Positions 1 through 37,641 of a DNA stretch of 56,258 nucleotides are shown piece by piece. Location of the stretch: positions 1-56,258 of the IMG/VR virus record IMGVR_UViG_3300046170_000034; one strand, given 5' to 3'. Numbering within the stretch: position 1 is the stretch's first letter; every line of letters starts with the position of its first letter. The position numbers were made by a program, and so were the translations under genes. Under the pieces are notes generated by a model. The model searched no databases, was not told the origin of the DNA, and worked only from the letters and a program-made list of their open reading frames with translations. Origin of the DNA: a virus.

Positions 1-35
1 TTGATAAATTCATTGGCATGTATTATTGTTTGGGT

Positions 36-1520
36 ATGAGCTTAGAACTAGACACGATCCCCGAAGACGACCTACGAGAAATGCTTCTGCTAGAAGAACA
101 GCTAAAGCGTTTGGAAACCCGCGACTTAGCGCGTGAAAGCTTTATGCACTACGTAAATCATGTCTACGATGGGTTCATAGTTGGTCGTCACCATAAAATC
201 ATTGCGGAAAAACTAGAAAGGATTGCTTCGGGTGACTTGAAGCGCCTGATAGTGAACATGCCGCCTCGACATTCCAAGTCAGAATTTGCGTCCTATTTGA
301 TGCCTTCGTGGTTCTTGGGTCGAAATCCTAAGTTAAAAATCATTCAGGCTACCATGAACACTGAACTTGCTGTAAGATTCGGTCGTAAAGTTCGTGACTT
401 GATCGCTGACCCTGTATATGCGGAAGTCTTTCCGAAAACGGACTTGAAACAGGATTCCCAAGCTGCTGGTCGGTGGGAGACTAGCGCGGGGGGTGAATAC
501 TTTGCCGCTGGGGTGGGCGCGGCAATGACTGGCCGTGGTGGCGATTTGATTATCATTGATGATCCGCACTCGGAGCAGGACGCATTATCGTCTACTGCCT
601 ACGATAGAACCTATGAGTGGTACACATCTGGTCCGCGACAGCGTCTTCAGCCGGGCGGCGCCATTATTATTGTTCAGACTAGGTGGTCAAAGAAGGATTT
701 GACTGGTCGGTTACTGCAAGCGCAGGGTAACGACATCATGTCTGACCAGTGGGAGGTCGTAGAATTTCCGGCCATCATGCCATCTGACCAGCCGTTATGG
801 CCAGAATTCTGGAAGAAGGAAGAATTATTAAAGGTCAAAGCTTCGTTGTCCCCGGGCAAATGGAATGCGCAGTGGCAACAGAATCCTGTGTCCGAAGAAA
901 CTGCGATGATAAAGCGCGAGTGGTGGCAGGAGTGGGAGCACGAAGATATTCCGAAGCTTGACTATATTATTCAGTCTTATGATACTGCGTTCAGCAAGAA
1001 AGAGACTGCTGACTACAGTGCGATAACTACATGGGGTGTGTTTGAGCCTCACAGCAACGGCGAGCAGCATTTGATTATGTTGGATGCTAAGAAGGGTCGT
1101 TGGAATTTTCCTGAACTCAAGACCATAGCACAGGAAGAATACGAGTATTGGGAACCGGATATGATGCTGATTGAGGCAAAAGCGTCTGGTACACCTTTGG
1201 CTGACGAGATGAGGTTACTGAACCTTCCTGTCCTGACATTTAGCCCCGGTCGTAAGAAGGGGGGCGGTGGAATGGATAAAACCACACGCATGCATATGGC
1301 TTCGCCTATATTTGAGGGTGGTAAGGTTTGGTATCCTGCTGGCAAGAGGTTTGCTGAAGACGTGATCGAGGAGGTTGCTTCTTTTCCTAATGGCGATCAT
1401 GATGACTTTTGTGATAGTATGACAATGGCTCTGATGCGTTTTCGCCAAGGGGGCTTTATTAGTTTGAACGGAGAAGAACTTGAGGACTGGGCACCGACGC
1501 GCAACAGGGAATATTACTAA
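36..1520 (+). CDS. terL: Terminase large subunit (packaging ATPase and nuclease)
   Basis: Motor that pumps DNA into the prohead and cuts the concatemer. Counting from the Met at 36, a Walker A-like PPRHSKSE lies at residues 76-83, Walker B LIIIDDP at 171-177, and RNase H-fold nuclease aspartates at D316 (SYDTAF) and D326 (ADYSA), with a final acidic cluster DHDDFCDS near 454-461. The length of 494 aa is normal for the family. An in-frame ATG at 18 is an alternative start; neither has a clear Shine-Dalgarno sequence, and 36 gives the more usual N-terminus. The small subunit is not adjacent: its candidate is at 52534, separated by leftward genes if the molecule is circular. Confidence 0.96.
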   Translation: MSLELDTIPEDDLREMLLLEEQLKRLETRDLARESFMHYVNHVYDGFIVGRHHKIIAEKLERIASGDLKRLIVNMPPRHSKSEFASYLMPSWFLGRNPKLKIIQATMNTELAVRFGRKVRDLIADPVYAEVFPKTDLKQDSQAAGRWETSAGGEYFAAGVGAAMTGRGGDLIIIDDPHSEQDALSSTAYDRTYEWYTSGPRQRLQPGGAIIIVQTRWSKKDLTGRLLQAQGNDIMSDQWEVVEFPAIMPSDQPLWPEFWKKEELLKVKASLSPGKWNAQWQQNPVSEETAMIKREWWQEWEHEDIPKLDYIIQSYDTAFSKKETADYSAITTWGVFEPHSNGEQHLIMLDAKKGRWNFPELKTIAQEEYEYWEPDMMLIEAKASGTPLADEMRLLNLPVLTFSPGRKKGGGGMDKTTRMHMASPIFEGGKVWYPAGKRFAEDVIEEVASFPNGDHDDFCDSMTMALMRFRQGGFISLNGEELEDWAPTRNREYY

Positions 1521-1598
1521 GCCCAAGGTTCGGCTAGTTCCCAATCGGTTTTCAAAGATCTTGCTTCCTGAGAAGAAGAAACCCACGAGGATTGCGTA

Positions 1599-3365
1599 AT
1601 GGCACAACTCACACCTACTGAACAGCGTGCGTTATTTGCTCAAGGCTTTAAGAAGCGCATGGGTAACTTGGCTGGCGTGGGTGATCGGATTGCTACTGAC
1701 GTGCCGAAGATTGCTTCGGGGTTAGTAAAGGAAGAGATCTTTGGCTTGCCGGGTTTAGTTGGTGATTTAATCGTTCCGGCGATGAGTGCCACAGGACCGC
1801 TGGCTCTTGATCCTGCTGCCCAACAAGCTTCGGAAAAGTTTCAAGAAGAGTTTGGTGCTAGTGGTTTAGCCCAAAAGGCTGGCGTTGAGTTATCGGATGA
1901 GTTTCTGGATGCAGAGGGTAACGTGCGTCCGGAGATGATTGGTCGTCTTCTGGCACCCGGTGCCCTATACGCCAAGACCGCTGGCCTAGCTGGTCTTTTC
2001 AAACAAGCTGTTACAAAGACCAAGGCCCGAGGTTCGGGGATCGAGAAGAAGGGTACTGGAACCGCGCAGCTTGATTCTTCGCCCTCGGACCTTGAACCTT
2101 CAGACGAGATTATGGATTATGTTAGGCGTCAGCAAACTCCTGATGCTATTAAGGATCTTGTGAGTCCTGATGCTAGTGAGTCGGCTACTTACTTTTTGCA
2201 GGATGCCAGAAAGTCGGACGAACTTTTAGACACTGTATCGCCTGACACTCTTAGTGCTATTCAAGGTAAGTTAAAAGAAGATTCAAATATCTTTGTGGCA
2301 GATCATCTTGGTATAAAGGTAGAGGACCTGACTCCTGATACCCCTGTGACTGTGTATCGTGTTGGTGATATTAAAGAAGGCGAGGTTCAGTCTTTCAGTT
2401 TAGATTCAAATATTGGTCGTCAAACATTGCCGGGGCAGAGCCTGAGAGAGCGTCAGGGAAAAACTACTCAGGCTACGAACAAATACACCGTAAGAGCGGG
2501 GGATATTTTAGCGTCGCCTGAGTCAACGGTGCCGGGAATCTCAAGCTTAAATGAAAAAGAAATCTTAATAGATGGTTCTAGCGTTAAGTCTGTTGCACCA
2601 AAAAAAGACGTCCTCGAGGGCGAGGTTGTAGGTGGCAAGTCTGACAAGTACACAAAGCTACAGAAGCAGGCTGACGAAGCTCGAACCTCGGAACTTAGCG
2701 ACGCCAAGACTTTGCAGATGGAGATTCAGGGGGTAACTGATGCTTTTGACGTAGCGGCGGCGAAGAAGTTAGATGCTACGTTTGAGATGATAGGTCGTCA
2801 GATGGGCGAGGATGCGCCGTACACATCTAAAGATTTCACTGACAATGTGATTGACGAGTTCGAGGGTGCTATTGATCAGGGTATGAGCCGTGCTGATGCG
2901 TTGATAGATGCTGTTCGGGTAACTACGGACAATTACAACAGAACGTTTAACGCTGACTTGTTTAACACAGAAGACATTTTGTCTGATTTATCTAAGGGTA
3001 TAAACGAGGATTTTGGTTTTGATGCGGCGTTGGATGCTCGGCGTGCGGGGCAGGCCAACCGTGCGGCATTGGAACAGCAGTTGAAAAACGCTGAGTCTGT
3101 AACACGGCGTGCTGATGCGGCGGCTAGTCAGGCTGAGTTAGAGCGTTTGGCTGGAGTAACTGACGACATGACGCCTGACGAGGTGTTTCAGGCGATATCT
3201 AATTATGCAGGTAAGGATCAGGCTGGCATATCTGGTGCTGGCATACCGCAGCCGAAACGTCCACAGCTTCGGGTTATTAGTGACAACACCCCTGTAAAGA
3301 AGGCCGCTGGCGGCAAGGTTGACCTACGGTCTGGCATTGGTAACGTATTTAAGTTATATTCGTAA
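1599..3365 (+). CDS. Virion-associated protein with putative ADP-ribosyltransferase-like domain
   Basis: A 588-aa protein between the terminase and the portal, with no family I can name. The N-terminal 140 residues are hydrophobic and glycine-rich (GLPGLVGDLIVPAMSA). Residues about 245-330 read like an R-S-E class ADP-ribosyltransferase: TVYRVGD with Arg254, SFSLDS at 265-270, KYTVRAGDIL at 295-304, and NEKEILI at 318-324 supplying an E-x-E motif. The rest is charged and helical, ending in a G-K-V-rich tail. If the domain is real, a co-packaged protein could modify host targets on entry, as known for T4 Alt or MuF-linked ARTs. The gene starts after an 78-nt gap and is followed by the portal gene 22 nt later. 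The coding call is firm, the function is inference from motif spacing. Confidence 0.85.
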   Translation: MAQLTPTEQRALFAQGFKKRMGNLAGVGDRIATDVPKIASGLVKEEIFGLPGLVGDLIVPAMSATGPLALDPAAQQASEKFQEEFGASGLAQKAGVELSDEFLDAEGNVRPEMIGRLLAPGALYAKTAGLAGLFKQAVTKTKARGSGIEKKGTGTAQLDSSPSDLEPSDEIMDYVRRQQTPDAIKDLVSPDASESATYFLQDARKSDELLDTVSPDTLSAIQGKLKEDSNIFVADHLGIKVEDLTPDTPVTVYRVGDIKEGEVQSFSLDSNIGRQTLPGQSLRERQGKTTQATNKYTVRAGDILASPESTVPGISSLNEKEILIDGSSVKSVAPKKDVLEGEVVGGKSDKYTKLQKQADEARTSELSDAKTLQMEIQGVTDAFDVAAAKKLDATFEMIGRQMGEDAPYTSKDFTDNVIDEFEGAIDQGMSRADALIDAVRVTTDNYNRTFNADLFNTEDILSDLSKGINEDFGFDAALDARRAGQANRAALEQQLKNAESVTRRADAAASQAELERLAGVTDDMTPDEVFQAISNYAGKDQAGISGAGIPQPKRPQLRVISDNTPVKKAAGGKVDLRSGIGNVFKLYS

Positions 3366-3387: not shown

Positions 3388-5772
3388 ATGGCACTACCAC
3401 CACAGATGGTTGACATGGCAATGGGCGCTGGCGGACCAGCGAACATGATGCCTGAAGAAATACAAGTAGAGTTACCTGCCGAGGATCAACTACCTGATGG
3501 CATAGAACTTGTGGGCGAAGAACAGGGGTTCGAGATCCAAACTGAGATGTACGATCACAGTGCTAATTTAGCCGAGGTTCTTGATGATTCCGAACTTGGT
3601 TCTTTGTCCTCGGACCTTCGTGACAAGGTTGACGATGATCGTGAGTCTCGGTCTGATTGGGAAGATGCCATATCGAGTGGTATGAAGCTACTGGGTGTTA
3701 ACTACGAGGAGCGTAGTGCTCCGTTCTTGGGTGCTAGTGGTGTTCACCATCCGTTACTTAGTGAGGCTGTTACGCAGTTTCAGGCGCAGGCATACAAAGA
3801 GATGATACCTGCTGGCGGACCTGTGAAGACGAACATAGCTGGCACACCTGACGCGGCTCGTGAAGATCAAGCCCAGCGTGTAAAAGATTTTATGAACTAT
3901 CAGGTTACGGAAGTGATGGAAGAGTTTGATCCTGACACGGATCAGATGTTGTTCTATCTACCGCTGACAGGTTCTACATTTAAGAAAGTATATCAGGACG
4001 CAGGCAAGGATCGTGCTGTATCCAAGTTCATTCCTGCTGATGATTTGATTGTACCTTATTCTGCATCTGACTTGGGCACTGCCGAGCGTGTGACACATGT
4101 TGTTCGCATGACTGAGAACGAGCTGCGCAAGATGCAGGTTGCGGGTGTTTATCGTGACATTGAACTACAGGCATCGGATGAGGAAGATGACAGACCTATT
4201 AAACAAACTGAAGATGAGCTTCAAGGCGTTCGTCCATCGTATTCGGATGACGTATATACCTTACTTGAAATCCACACTGACCTTGACCTTGATGGTTTTG
4301 AGGATATGGATCCGCAAGGCGAGCCAACTGGTATTAAGCTTCCCTACATCGTCACTCTGGACGATGCTTCGGGAAAGGTATTATCGATTGTGCGTAATTA
4401 TCGGGAAGTGGATCCCCTAAAGAAAAAGCGCCAATACTTCGTTCACTATAAGTTTTTGCCCGGCTTTGGCTTTTATGGCTTTGGTTTGTTGCATACAATA
4501 GGGGGTTTGTCTCGTGCCGCGACTTCGATTCTTAGACAACTCATCGATGCGGGGACGCTCTCTAATCTCCCTGCTGGTTTTAAAGCCCGTGGCGTTCGTA
4601 TTCGCAATGATGATGAACCGCTTAGTCCCGGCGAGTTTCGTGATATTGATGCTCCCGGTGGTGATCTTCGGAATGCTCTTATGCCCCTTCCATACAAGGA
4701 ACCTTCTGGGACACTTGCTCAATTACTGGGCGTTATCGTCGATTCAGGCCGGAGATTTGCACAGGTTGCAGACGCAAAAATTGCCGACGTCAACTCACAA
4801 GCCCCAGTCGGAACAACCGTTGCACTGATCGAGCAAGGCTCGAAGATCATATCAAGCATTCACAAGCGTTTGCACTATGCCCAGAAGCAAGAGTTCCGTT
4901 TGCTGGCGCAGGTATTCAGCGACAATCCAATGCCGTATCCATACTTTGTCGGGCAGAACATGCCTGCTGAGATTATGGCGCAGGACTTTGATGGTCGTGT
5001 TGATGTGTTGCCTGCCAGTGACCCGTCAATATTTTCTATGTCACAGCGTTTGTCGCTAGCACAGACACAGTTGCAGTTGGCTCAAGCCGCACCGCAGATG
5101 CATAACATGTACGAAGCCTATCGTCGTATGTACGATGCGTTGGATGTGAAGAACATCGACGGTATTCTGCCAGTGCCACAGCCGCCGCAACCTATTGATC
5201 CAGCTACAGAGAACGCAAACTCTGTAAAAGGTATGCCGCCACAGGCATTTCCACAACAGGATCATGAGTCACACATCATGGCGCACTCTATGTTCTTGTC
5301 GTCACCAGTTGCGTCTGCCAACCCGCAGGGTTTCTTGTTGTTGCAGGCTCACGTACAGGAGCACGTATCTATGCTGGCACGGGATCAGATCATGGCGTTC
5401 TTCGAGAATGCGGCGCAACAGGCGCAGGCACAAGGTGAGCCAGTTCCGCAGGTAGCTCCAGAAGTAATTGAGTCTGCTGTTGCCCAGCAGGTCACAGAGA
5501 TCATGAAGCAGATCATGCCTATGGTACAACCACCCCAGCAAGAGGATCCGTTGGTTGCGATCCGTCAGCAGGAGTTGCAGAACGATACGCAGGAAATACA
5601 GCGTAAGATGCAAAATGACTCTATGGACTTCCAGATTGATCAGGCCAAGCTACAGCAACAGTATGAACTGGCACAGCAACGCCAAGGATTGCAGGAGCAA
5701 ATAGCGGGTGATCGTAACGATGTTAATATCTATCGTATTAACACACAGGCGGCATTAAGTAAGGATCGGTAA
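3388..5772 (+). CDS. Portal protein (head-tail connector)
   Basis: Dodecameric vertex ring through which DNA enters and leaves the capsid. The protein is 794 aa, in the size range of P22-like portals. The central part carries portal-like stretches such as FLGASGVHHPLLSEAV and FIPADDLIVPYSASDLGTAERVTH, in which an incoming substrate is read as a bacteriophage portal of the marine podovirus kind. The last 100 or so residues are Gln-rich and helical (coiled-coil barrel or crown). An SD (AAGGAG) precedes the ATG. It follows the terminase block and its stop overlaps the next start (TAATG), consistent with one operon. Confidence 0.9.
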   Translation: MALPPQMVDMAMGAGGPANMMPEEIQVELPAEDQLPDGIELVGEEQGFEIQTEMYDHSANLAEVLDDSELGSLSSDLRDKVDDDRESRSDWEDAISSGMKLLGVNYEERSAPFLGASGVHHPLLSEAVTQFQAQAYKEMIPAGGPVKTNIAGTPDAAREDQAQRVKDFMNYQVTEVMEEFDPDTDQMLFYLPLTGSTFKKVYQDAGKDRAVSKFIPADDLIVPYSASDLGTAERVTHVVRMTENELRKMQVAGVYRDIELQASDEEDDRPIKQTEDELQGVRPSYSDDVYTLLEIHTDLDLDGFEDMDPQGEPTGIKLPYIVTLDDASGKVLSIVRNYREVDPLKKKRQYFVHYKFLPGFGFYGFGLLHTIGGLSRAATSILRQLIDAGTLSNLPAGFKARGVRIRNDDEPLSPGEFRDIDAPGGDLRNALMPLPYKEPSGTLAQLLGVIVDSGRRFAQVADAKIADVNSQAPVGTTVALIEQGSKIISSIHKRLHYAQKQEFRLLAQVFSDNPMPYPYFVGQNMPAEIMAQDFDGRVDVLPASDPSIFSMSQRLSLAQTQLQLAQAAPQMHNMYEAYRRMYDALDVKNIDGILPVPQPPQPIDPATENANSVKGMPPQAFPQQDHESHIMAHSMFLSSPVASANPQGFLLLQAHVQEHVSMLARDQIMAFFENAAQQAQAQGEPVPQVAPEVIESAVAQQVTEIMKQIMPMVQPPQQEDPLVAIRQQELQNDTQEIQRKMQNDSMDFQIDQAKLQQQYELAQQRQGLQEQIAGDRNDVNIYRINTQAALSKDR

Positions 5773-8602: not shown

Positions 8603-8812
8603 ATGGATGCTATACAATTTATAACAAGGTATAAAAGAACCTTGCAGAATCGCGTGGATGACATTAGCATCTCCGTGACAAGCGGCGGAGTTTCCGATAT
8701 GGAGACTTACCGTTCTATGATAGGTGAGATTCAGGGACTTACCTATGCGTTAGATGAACTTCAAACCCTGCTAAAAAAGGATGATTATGACGAAGACCCT
8801 ATTCGTACCTGA
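8603..8812 (+). CDS. Small helical hypothetical protein, 69 aa
   Basis: A helical, acidic 69-aa protein without recognised domain: an amphipathic first helix (IQFITRYKRTLQNRVDD), a glycine turn, and a second helix (EIQGLTYALDELQTLL). Two-helix proteins of this kind just upstream of capsid genes are common in phages; the role is unknown. It overlaps the start of the GroES-like gene by 26 bases, suggesting coupled translation. Confidence 0.7.
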   Translation: MDAIQFITRYKRTLQNRVDDISISVTSGGVSDMETYRSMIGEIQGLTYALDELQTLLKKDDYDEDPIRT

Positions 8813-9221
8813 CCATATTATGCGGCAACAGCGAGCTAAGAAAAAAGCTGAAGAAGAAGCCAAACAAAAACCCCTTACAGAAAGAATCCCACAGCCAACA
8901 GGTTGGCGCATACTCGTCATGCCGTATAAAGGCAAAGACGTTTCTGAGGGCGGTGTTATCATACCAGATCAAGCAAAAGACCGAGAAGCACGGGGCACTG
9001 TTGTAGCCTATGTGGTTAAGGTTGGTCCGCTTGCGTATCAAGATCCCGACAAATTCGGTGCGGAATCCGAACCTTGGTGTAAAGAAGGTGATTGGATTTG
9101 TATTGGTCGGTATTCCGGGTCTCGCTTTAATATAGAAGGCGGTGAGGTTCGCATCATCAATGACGATGAGGTCATTGCAACCATTGTCGATCCAGACGAC
9201 ATAAAGACATACGGAGCGTAG
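8787..9221 (+). CDS. GroES-like co-chaperonin (Cpn10 family)
   Basis: Probable lid protein that works with the host GroEL to fold capsid proteins. From the ATG at 8787 it is 144 aa. After a lysine-rich N-terminal extension of about 40 residues comes the Cpn10 barrel: GWRILVMPYK, SEGGVIIPD in the mobile-loop region, ARGTVVAYVVKVGP, the acidic WCKEGDWICIG strand and the end IINDDEVIATI. Bacterial GroES is about 97 aa, so this version is enlarged by the N-terminal extension and an inserted loop. Phage-encoded co-chaperonins (T4 gp31, marine phages) support capsid assembly, which fits its place just before scaffold and capsid. Confidence 0.85.
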   Translation: MTKTLFVPDHIMRQQRAKKKAEEEAKQKPLTERIPQPTGWRILVMPYKGKDVSEGGVIIPDQAKDREARGTVVAYVVKVGPLAYQDPDKFGAESEPWCKEGDWICIGRYSGSRFNIEGGEVRIINDDEVIATIVDPDDIKTYGA

Positions 9222-33390: not shown

Positions 33391-36300
33391 GTGGAAGAAG
33401 ATGATCTTTTCAAGGGATTGATTGATGACCCCGTAGCAGACGAGGGTCTTACAGAAGATTCTCTTTTTGAGGGTCTTGTGGATGGAGCCGTCATGGCTCC
33501 TGCACAACCGGAAGTGGCCGACGAGCAAGACGAGGGCGTAGTTCAAGAGGCTATAGAAGGCGCAATTTCTGGACTTATAGCTATACCTCAAGGGATTCTA
33601 GAACTTGGTGCTATTGGTGTAGATCTTGCGGCGGGAACCAGTCTTTCATCTGCTGTGACAGAAAAAGCAGAAGGTCTAAGAGAATACTTAGGTCTCGATC
33701 CTACTGGTCTTGTTGGTAAAGGCACGGAAGCTATCTTTCAATATGCCATTCCCGGTCTTGGAGCCGCAGGCGTTGTAAGTAAACTTAGTAAGGTAGGAAG
33801 ACTATCCAAAGCTTTAGGAAAAGGTAAGGCGTCACCATTAAAAAACAAAGACGGTACACTAGGGTTAACACGCGGAGAAAAGCTTGGCCTTGGTGCACAG
33901 CAAGTTGCCGCCGCAGGTCTAGCTGATGCTGTTGTGGCTACTGACGGTACAACTACTATTGCAGACTTCTTTGAGGGCGGTCCCACACAAACTGATCAAG
34001 AAATAGGGTTGGCAGGTCGTGAAGAGGCGCTTCGCAGGTTAACCAATAAATTATCCGTGGGTGCAGAGGGCGCTGCGGCAACTATAGTTGCACCAGCAAT
34101 TCTTGCCGGAACCGCAAATGTAGCAGGTCGTGCACTTACTCAAGACACTATAGCTGGTGTTACCAACCCACTTGCAAAAGGTGTTCAGCTAGCGGCAAAG
34201 ACTACTATCAAAGGCGGTCAAAAAGTAAAAAAAGTTTTTGATGACGCAGAAGCGGATCGTATATTCCGCCCTGAACAACAGGGTGCTCTGGGTCAGGGAC
34301 TAGCTGGGTTGTCATCTATATTTAGATACAGAAGTTTTCTTCCTGAAAGAATTGCGGAACAGCGTTCTTTAATTTCTGGTGATGTAGAAGCTCAGATCAA
34401 AGGTGCTAAGTCTGTGCTTGCTGGTCTAGATAAAGAGATAGATGTTGTTTTAAAAGAAGCCGCAAAAGTTACATCAAAAAAAGACTCGCCACTTATCCGT
34501 CAAAAGATTTTTACTAACCTCGAAGAGTTTATGACAGGGCCTACCAAGGAAGCCAGACTTCGTGCCTTTGACGAACTGCCTGAAAACGTACAGCTTAAAG
34601 CAACTGAAATGCGTAAGCTTGTCGATAGGTTAAGTAACGACGTATTAAATAGTAACTACGTAAAGTCTTTAGATGGGGTTTCCGGGAAAAAAGGTTCGGG
34701 GATCACGGACATGGGAGCTGCGCTCAGATCCGAAATCGAGGAAAACTTAAATAAGTATCTTCGTCGTCGCTACCGCATCTTTGAAGACGCTAAATATGTG
34801 CCAACGGAAGAATCTATTGAGGCTGGTATAAAAGGATTTATGGGCAGTAAGCGTCAGACAATTAAAGAACTGTCGCGCCTTGTTAATAATAAAGCAGTTC
34901 CTGCTGAAAACAGAGCGGGACTGATGGAAAAGTACGGCCTAATTGGCGACCTTGATGACCCCACTAGCTTTAGGCTTGTGGGTGACGAGGTAACTCCAGA
35001 GCAAGCAAAGCAAGCTGTAGATGAATTCATAAAAAGACACCGCCCAAGAACAAGCAAAGGTCAAACTACTTTTACCTCTAGAGTAGAAGAGTTTGGGATC
35101 CAGCCCGGCATGTTTAAACAGCGCATGCAAAGGTCAGACTTTAAACGCGCACTACTGGGTGAGGTGTCAGACACTAGAGAAGCATTTCTTGGAACTGTGT
35201 CTGATCTAGCTGAGTTTCGTGCTGTTGATGACTACTTTGGCAGTATCGCAAATGCTTCTAGATCAAGTGAAAACATGAGTAAGTTTTTTGTGTCACCAGA
35301 AAAACTTCGACTTATGAATCCCGATGAATTAGACAACTACGTAGTTTTAGGCAAGGGCGATGACGTAGGAGACTCTGCGTGGGGGTCTTTGCAAGGCTTC
35401 GCTGTTCCTAACGCTTTGTATAACGACATGACCCGCTTGGTTATAAATGACATGGGCACGTCCGGTAACCTTGCAAGAAAAGCATACTCCGGATTCCTGC
35501 GATTAAAGTCGGGAGCGCAATACGCAAAGACTGTTTTATCTTTTACCACGCAAATACGTAACGTAACCTCTGCCGGACTTATGGCTTTGGCTCAAGGTAA
35601 TGTTGGTAAAGGCGCCAACCTCGGTGAATCCGTTCGTCTTGTGATGGATGACATCTTCGACATGAAACCAGAAGATGCGTTACGAGAACTACAGGAAGTG
35701 CAGGCTCTTGGTGTTACAGGAACGCAAGCAGAGTTACGAGAACTACAGGATCTTATCAAAAAAGGTCTAGGCTTTACCGAAGACGCGACTGTCGATGGGG
35801 TAAAGGTGGGTCGTAAGTTTGGCTCCTCGCTAACAGATAGCACGCTTGGTTCGTTTATATCCAAAACAGGAAAGGTTGCTCAGAACTTATATCAGGGCGG
35901 TGACGACGTTTGGAAAATATACAACTACAAGTTTGAGCAAAATAAGTTACGTAATGCTTTACGTTCGGAGACTTTGGAAAACCAGTACAAGGCACTCAAC
36001 GGGGCACCCGTTCAGCAGGGTACGGAAATAACCTCTGACATGGTAAACCGAGCATATAAAGAAGAAGCTGCACGGATCGTAAGAAATACAGTTCCTAACT
36101 ATAACCTAGCTCCAGAGGCCATACGCGGTCTTCGTAAACTACCTGTCGGTAACTTTATCACTTTTCCATACGAGATTCTTCGGACAGGTGTTAACACCAT
36201 TTCTCGTGCGGTTGATGAACTTGCTAGTGACAATGCCGCTATCAGGCAAATAGGATTGCGTCGCATAACCGGAGCCATGTCAACCTACGCTATTGCTCCT

Positions 36301-37641
36301 ATGACGTTGAAGAACTATGCGCATGAAGTTAGTGGTGTTTCAGAAGATGAGCTAGATGCATACCAAAGATCTATCGCCATGCCTTGGGAACGTAACGCAC
36401 GTTTGATTCCTACTGGGCGAGATGAAAATGGTTTACCTACATACATTAATTACAGCTACACAAACCCATATGACCTACTTGAAAAAATAGCTGTTGCTGC
36501 GTTTAACAAAACAGAAGAAGGTAGACTACAAGGTAAACCCAGTGCTCAGATAGTCTTTGAGGCAGCGCAGGCTCCTTTTGCCGAGTTGTTTGCCCCGTTT
36601 ACAGAAGAGTCTATTATAACAGGTAAGATACGTGACGTTTTGGATCCTGAGTCGGAAACTTTAGGTGTCCGTCAGTTGGCTCAGTTAGCAGGTGGTAGAG
36701 CAGGTAATACAATAACTGGTGCTCGAGTTTATAACCCCGAAGATTCCGCTGGAGATAAATTAGCAAAAAGTTTTGCTCATGTAATCGATGGAGTAATGCC
36801 GGGCAGTTCGCCAATTGATGTGCGGTCAGGTGAAGTTGAACTCAGTAGATTTGCTCGCGCCTTCTTAAATGACACAGGACTGTCGGAAGAGTTTAATATC
36901 TCGCCCAAAGACAGAGCCGGGCTAGAGCTAGACTTGTCGGAAGAGTTAGCACGAGTTATTAGTGGTGTAGGCGAACGAAAGATTGACGCCCCTGTAGGTC
37001 TTAGATTTAAGGGGTTTGAGTTTGGGCGTGCAAGACAAAATGCAAAGAACATTGTAAACACAGTAGCTAATCGTAGAAACGTAGTTAGCTCTGATCTAGT
37101 TGATGCGTACCGCGCATCAGAGGAAGCAACCTTCCGTGTTCAGAATCAAATGTTTAGTCTAATAGAAGACATGAAGAAGATCGGTATGTCTCGAGGACAA
37201 ATCAGAAAAACGTTGAAGAACGCTAATGTATCCGGAATAACCGAGATACTACAAGGTCGGTATGTACCTCCTAAAATTACTAGTGTTATAACAGGGAACA
37301 TGCGTCGCAACGAAACGATAGATCAATACAGAAAGGCTAGACCCGAGATCGAAAAAATTAGAAGAGAGGCGCGGTCTCGTAAGTTTGGTGTTGCTGAAGA
37401 AGAAACTTCAGTATCCGTTAGTGCTCCTGTAGCTCAGACAGAGGACGCGCTGTTTGAAGGACTGCTAGATAATGTAGCACCTGTATCACAGGCTCCAGCA
37501 AGTACGACCTCGAACCTCGGAACTTTACCTGCGGCATCAGGCCAGTCAAGTGCAGCCGCAAGAACAAACCCTGCACTTCTTGGTGGTGGCAACCCGCTTG
37601 ATATATTAAAGAATCTAGTGATTGCTCAGAGGAATCCATAA
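33391..37641 (+). CDS. Giant internal virion (ejection) protein, 1416 aa
   Basis: GTG start with SD GGAGG at 33380-33384. The protein is long, helical, with an Ala/Gly hydrophobic region near 55-130 and no catalytic motif that I can assign. A short motif of the type L-F-x-G-L-h-D occurs at both ends: DLFKGLIDD and SLFEGLVDG at residues about 5-31 and ALFEGLLDN near 1350. Size and placement match the largest internal virion proteins of podoviruses, which thread through the envelope at infection. Confidence 0.8.
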   Translation: MEEDDLFKGLIDDPVADEGLTEDSLFEGLVDGAVMAPAQPEVADEQDEGVVQEAIEGAISGLIAIPQGILELGAIGVDLAAGTSLSSAVTEKAEGLREYLGLDPTGLVGKGTEAIFQYAIPGLGAAGVVSKLSKVGRLSKALGKGKASPLKNKDGTLGLTRGEKLGLGAQQVAAAGLADAVVATDGTTTIADFFEGGPTQTDQEIGLAGREEALRRLTNKLSVGAEGAAATIVAPAILAGTANVAGRALTQDTIAGVTNPLAKGVQLAAKTTIKGGQKVKKVFDDAEADRIFRPEQQGALGQGLAGLSSIFRYRSFLPERIAEQRSLISGDVEAQIKGAKSVLAGLDKEIDVVLKEAAKVTSKKDSPLIRQKIFTNLEEFMTGPTKEARLRAFDELPENVQLKATEMRKLVDRLSNDVLNSNYVKSLDGVSGKKGSGITDMGAALRSEIEENLNKYLRRRYRIFEDAKYVPTEESIEAGIKGFMGSKRQTIKELSRLVNNKAVPAENRAGLMEKYGLIGDLDDPTSFRLVGDEVTPEQAKQAVDEFIKRHRPRTSKGQTTFTSRVEEFGIQPGMFKQRMQRSDFKRALLGEVSDTREAFLGTVSDLAEFRAVDDYFGSIANASRSSENMSKFFVSPEKLRLMNPDELDNYVVLGKGDDVGDSAWGSLQGFAVPNALYNDMTRLVINDMGTSGNLARKAYSGFLRLKSGAQYAKTVLSFTTQIRNVTSAGLMALAQGNVGKGANLGESVRLVMDDIFDMKPEDALRELQEVQALGVTGTQAELRELQDLIKKGLGFTEDATVDGVKVGRKFGSSLTDSTLGSFISKTGKVAQNLYQGGDDVWKIYNYKFEQNKLRNALRSETLENQYKALNGAPVQQGTEITSDMVNRAYKEEAARIVRNTVPNYNLAPEAIRGLRKLPVGNFITFPYEILRTGVNTISRAVDELASDNAAIRQIGLRRITGAMSTYAIAPMTLKNYAHEVSGVSEDELDAYQRSIAMPWERNARLIPTGRDENGLPTYINYSYTNPYDLLEKIAVAAFNKTEEGRLQGKPSAQIVFEAAQAPFAELFAPFTEESIITGKIRDVLDPESETLGVRQLAQLAGGRAGNTITGARVYNPEDSAGDKLAKSFAHVIDGVMPGSSPIDVRSGEVELSRFARAFLNDTGLSEEFNISPKDRAGLELDLSEELARVISGVGERKIDAPVGLRFKGFEFGRARQNAKNIVNTVANRRNVVSSDLVDAYRASEEATFRVQNQMFSLIEDMKKIGMSRGQIRKTLKNANVSGITEILQGRYVPPKITSVITGNMRRNETIDQYRKARPEIEKIRREARSRKFGVAEEETSVSVSAPVAQTEDALFEGLLDNVAPVSQAPASTTSNLGTLPAASGQSSAAARTNPALLGGGNPLDILKNLVIAQRNP

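Follow-up and report, generated by a model that had tools for sequence, protein, structure and literature searches.

A compact, exchangeable domain resembling R-S-E ADP-ribosyltransferases in a protein encoded between terminase and portal genes of an uncultured marine phage

The Alt protein of phage T4 is an ADP-ribosyltransferase (ART) which is packaged in the virion and injected (PMC5512222), and ARTs whose genes lie close to terminase and portal have been interpreted as packaged (PMC9503650). ART domains of the Tox-ART-HYD2/ART-PolyVal kind are found in phage proteins of modular build, encoded alongside virion genes, and are of the H-Y-D type; the R-S-E family of Alt is absent from genuine polyvalent proteins (PMC5512222). 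The subject of this work is a window of 56,258 nucleotides, the whole stretch analysed, corresponding to IMG/VR virus record IMGVR_UViG_3300046170_000034. It derives from an uncultured marine phage, whose host is not given in the record. The gene located between terminase and portal, a position called here the slot, encodes a protein of 588 amino acids. Residues ~162-335 of this modular, polyvalent-like protein probably form a compact ART domain, of the R-S-E and not of the H-Y-D class.

Scans of IMG/VR identified homologues of the slot protein in several related stretches (L002, L003, L006-L011 and L031/L032; L-numbers, from L002 to L110, denote such stretches). Conservation was assessed in A7, an alignment of eight homologous rows whose identity to the window is 41-80%.

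1599-3365, plus strand: modular slot protein of 588 amino acids with the ART-like domain (open reading frame; IMG/VR homologues)
2358-2360, plus strand: Arg254, predicted NAD (nicotinamide adenine dinucleotide)-binding arginine of strand 1, invariant in A7
2391-2393, plus strand: Ser265 of the SFS motif, strand 2, invariant in A7
2553-2561, plus strand: E319-K320-E321 (E-x-E), with the predicted catalytic glutamate E321; both Glu residues invariant in A7

The residues follow one another as Y253-R254, S265-F266-S267-L268-D269-S270 and E319-K320-E321, precisely where a preliminary description, made from the sequence alone, had read YR, SFSLDS and E-K-E, downstream of residue 245 (starting at base 2331). 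The motif in one sequence alone is weak evidence; in shuffles of the slot protein the strict R-S-ExE pattern occurs in 0.75%, a loose pattern in 12%. It becomes convincing because R254, S265, E319 and E321 are all invariant in the eight homologous rows. The four are among the 15 invariant columns out of 83 in the core of A7 (P=7e-4 for the four positions), and Arg254 and Glu321, whose absence from close homologues had been named as counter-evidence, are kept in every row. In the relatives R254 is preceded by Y or F, in line with the aromatic residue that usually precedes the strand-1 arginine of R-S-E enzymes; the S265 position reads SFS, SYT or STT, in keeping with the S-x-[ST] of strand 2, and the invariant E319/E321 pair is followed by I/V-L/I-I, i.e. 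by the hydrophobic strand which comes after [EQ]-x-E. The ratio of nonsynonymous to synonymous substitution rates (dN/dS) is ~0.13 when the window is compared with L006 or L008, denoting purifying selection. The strongest conservation also takes in VGD and other non-catalytic positions.

The known ARTs T4 ModA and ModB resemble the window domain in having helices ahead of strand 1, followed by YR, S-F-[ST] and E-x-E. They differ in being encoded by stand-alone genes outside the packaging block, and in their spacing, since R and S are 24-26 residues apart and S and E 69-74, versus 11 and 56 in the window. The spacing expected of mono-ARTs, claimed in the preliminary description along with the order, is therefore only partly found. 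A7 was compared by hhalign with A8, an alignment of the ModA/ModB family including T4 and four relatives, and with the family of Octobien14 gp9. The setting -M 50 was used, which reproduces the scores of the comparison tool and separates signal from shuffles. The scores were 24.8 and 23.0, respectively. None of 150 column shuffles reached either value, and 70 decoy profiles, taken from the window and from T4 and only 16 of them containing three or more sequences, scored 17.4 at most (mean 12.0, standard deviation 2.0). Support from profiles for homology to the T4 Mod family may be regarded as good, though inconclusive. Octobien14 gp9 (phrog_4776) shares YR, SWT and E-x-E with the window domain. 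In contrast to the latter, it is the product of a stand-alone gene of 231 codons located upstream of the terminase, and R and S are 14 residues apart. Pairwise alignments to gp9 are for the most part insignificant.

2097-2309, plus strand: helical lobe predicted for the N-terminal part of the domain, residues 167-237 (AlphaFold2, predicted local distance difference test score, pLDDT, 82-95 over most of it)

The model obtained by AlphaFold2 on A7 has a mean pLDDT of 81.5 and a predicted template modelling score of 0.76; a first alignment, which held misaligned distant rows, had given a pLDDT of 72.7 before the rows were cut to the core. Four helices are followed by strands bearing R254, S265 and, past an intervening strand pair, E321. 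When 350,542 PDB chains were compared, the best match was an R-S-E ART with either model, ExoS with the first (6gn0, E=0.04) and YenC3-CTD with the second (6aqk, E=0.4). Among viral proteins, the first model matches best an Octobien14 protein of 231 residues (probability 0.98, E=3.7e-3), a length which in the Octobien14 record only gp9 has. This protein reads IYRGHD..GLSWTLS..GEQEIVV, with YR, SWT and EQE in the order of the window domain. The fold of the domain is probably that of an ART.

2070-2617, plus strand: exchangeable cassette (~residues 158-340) holding the ART-like domain; an unrelated module is found there in L004
1706-1979, plus strand: N-terminal segment replaced in the otherwise near-identical L003 (blastn breakpoints)

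The domain is exchanged as a block. By blastn, window and L004 share 99.5% DNA identity over window positions 1-2069 and 98.8% from position 2618, while the segment 2070-2617 is dissimilar. The ART-like domain is therefore a complete exchange unit of ~180 residues. The replacement module in L004 matches phrog_30118; it spans positions 3531-4264 of that stretch (KAYKLF..RPGWH..AEVEVP), and is present also in the slot proteins of L053 and L068, which carry the C-terminal tag described below. One enzymatic-type domain is recognisable in the window protein, and relatives carry other modules. In L008 (850-1335) the module past the ART-like domain has a GHEGRHR motif, looks ParB-like by eye and has no Pfam match. 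The slot proteins of L009 and L031 (1411-1443 residues) have in common a VNEIQSN region; it follows the ART-like domain on the C-terminal side, is also devoid of Pfam matches and bears a resemblance to an EIQSD-type module seen in multidomain proteins of phages.

33391-37641, plus strand: virion-type protein of 1416 amino acids (phrog_22602, virion structural protein)

The IMG/VR scans also revealed the domain in two remote kinds of proteins. In L021-L023 it resides inside a protein of 1506 amino acids, in L024 (4822-9789) inside an LPD38 polyvalent protein of 1656 amino acids. In similarity to the window domain, L021 scores 122, well beyond the shuffle maximum of 69, and L024 scores 77, just over its maximum of 73. 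The C-terminal region of the L024 protein resembles by eye a lytic transglycosylase. The L021 protein is 41-48% identical to the 1416-residue protein of the window on either side of an insert of ~165 residues, which carries the ART-like domain (blastp and global alignment). The insertion point corresponds to residues ~867-882 of the window protein, where just a short linker is found. The strict motif occurs at residue 703 of the same window protein as well; nothing beyond the pattern was seen there, and the occurrence was judged fortuitous. Members of this protein family include gp123 of Cellulophaga phage phi18:3, annotated from tandem mass spectrometry proteomics, and WPJ21803.1 of Pseudoalteromonas phage Y3, annotated as ADP-ribosyltransferase. 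The latter shares the large virion-protein backbone with the L021 and window proteins, but its N-terminus (VLYHGSP) is by our reading an ART of the H type, not R-S-E. The L021 insertion, in a virion protein that is probably injected, is the best clue, albeit indirect, that the domain may travel in virions.

Features of polyvalent proteins were found in other slot proteins. An LPD23-like stretch occurs in L054, and some bodies match an internal virion protein family. Like polyvalent proteins, the slot protein is encoded with portal and terminase genes. Set against the published picture of polyvalent ARTs, an R-S-E-like domain hosted both by an LPD38 protein and by a slot protein of shuffled modules is a variant. 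The preliminary description had proposed a virion-borne enzyme modifying host proteins on entry. The R-S-E ART-like domain has good support from conservation, predicted secondary structure, ranks of fold matches and the Mod profile; carriage by the virion and action at entry are plausible, on the indirect grounds of the insertion in a virion-protein homologue and of the polyvalent features of other slot proteins.

18-1520, plus strand: large subunit of terminase, upstream neighbour (phrog_38, E=1.5e-106; PF17289)
3388-5772, plus strand: SU10-type portal protein, downstream neighbour (PF23899 SU10_portal, E=2.8e-10; phrog_1216)
3309-3362, plus strand: constant C-terminal tag of the slot protein, GGKVDLRSGIGNVFKLYS (exact C-terminus of 64 slot-protein bodies)

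Both neighbours were identified by profile matches, and the gene lies between terminase and portal as first described. The portal most resembles the portals of Pelagibacter phage HTVC027P and of marine phages like it (~52% identity). The window also encodes a GroES-like co-chaperonin (8781-9221; phrog_3188, E=2e-17), and HTVC027P and its relatives have one in the same position.

Slot proteins of variable body end alike, the consensus being GGxVD[LM]R[ST]GIGxxF[KR]xYS (window; L047-L110). The inner part of the tag, searched as a DNA pattern, retrieved 67 stretches. In 69 of 69 open reading frames (a few contigs were counted twice) the motif and the end are 6-7 residues apart; a portal homologue is found downstream in 65, and the remaining four contigs stop within ~0.7 kb. 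All of the 64 bodies compared have F at position -5, Y at -2 and S at -1, though these residues fall outside the search pattern. As the tag is encoded by 30 distinct DNA sequences yielding 21 distinct peptides, the constraint is apparently exerted on the protein. No similarity was detected in 783 of 2016 pairs of bodies, and chains of shared modules join nearly all of them. In L009 and L031 the terminal tag has the variant form GG.V..SGIGA.AREVM. We infer from these sequences that the tag is a candidate loading signal. The plain alternative is that it has been conserved simply via recombination at gene ends. It is tempting to regard the slot as an exchangeable effector bay, where interchangeable bodies share a constant tag docking to portal or head for delivery, but this reading is tentative. 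Equally tentative, within it, is the role of the tag as a natural cargo-loading signal.

Four explanations were considered. The best one, to which we assign a probability of about 0.6, is that the cassette is an R-S-E ART delivered by the virion. The domain is likely to be an active enzyme, and virion delivery of the slot protein is slightly favoured. NAD use, target, loading into and location in the virion, and timing are all inferred. NAD+ would be held by Arg254 and Ser265, and Glu321, in E-x-E, would be the catalytic residue for passing ADP-ribose to a host protein or RNA. The slot protein would be synthesised late, loaded at the head or the portal, possibly via the constant C-terminal tag, and would enter along with the DNA when the next infection begins. 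Late synthesis, virion carriage and action at entry, here only proposed, would be as in T4 Alt. Alternatively, an active ART could work late in the producing cell, modifying host factors or counteracting packaging-directed immunity, and not be delivered at all. The late-operon position beside terminase and portal fits this alternative, which is also named in PMC9503650 for ARTs in such contexts. Yet, L021 has the domain inserted in a virion-protein homologue, an LPD38 polyvalent protein contains it too, and matches to an internal virion protein family are seen among other slot proteins, all of which makes an enzyme confined to the producing cell unlikely.

Several observations weigh against a virion-delivered R-S-E ART. 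Sequence searches of Pfam, NCBIfam, PHROGs and PDB with the protein or the domain retrieved no ART family. T4 ModA likewise has no Pfam match, and the missing Pfam match is therefore uninformative. A match to the MamI endonuclease (E=0.17-0.22) was set aside as weak, as was phrog_17736 (E=0.002), which falls moreover outside the domain. Slot protein and domain found no match by tblastn among named phages, and two scans of genome contigs yielded no relative, and so gave no sign of homologues in bacteria. The hhalign probabilities are low (6.5% and 3.7%), which we attribute to the shallow alignments, and with the setting -M first the comparison with T4 Mod does not separate from shuffles. The matches to ExoS and YenC3-CTD are not significant individually, with template modelling (TM) scores below 0.3. 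In the fold check suggested in the preliminary description, the predicted helices and strands come in the order of a split beta-sheet core with a helical lobe, and ARTs are the top PDB matches, but at levels below significance. Finally, the distance between R and S is short compared to the T4 Mod enzymes. This unusually short connection, and the inclusion of VGD and other non-catalytic positions among the most conserved, would suit an ART-like fold with lost or altered catalysis, serving as a binding or structural module. Such a module is improbable, since four residues of catalytic type are invariant down to 41% identity under purifying selection, and a structural role would not require both Glu residues of E-x-E. 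That the fold is a different one, and the order of R, S and E-x-E coincidental, is suggested by the weakness of a motif in a single sequence, by fold matches under significance and by the missing library matches. However, the profile scores to the T4 Mod and Octobien14 gp9 families exceed every decoy and shuffle, an ART is the best PDB match of both models, and the viral protein matching best in fold presents these residues in identical order; a coincidence is thus very improbable.

The virion-delivered ART cassette would represent a new, compact and swappable variant of the R-S-E ART effectors of phages. Virion-type ART effectors would thereby be extended to a minimal R-S-E cassette of uncultured marine phages, which is gained and lost by recombination at a fixed genomic slot, and can be lodged within a large virion protein as well. 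Phages that are nearly identical but differ in having or lacking the cassette represent a natural experiment on the role of the effector, and the constant tag on variable proteins makes the choice of cargo for delivery by phages directly testable.
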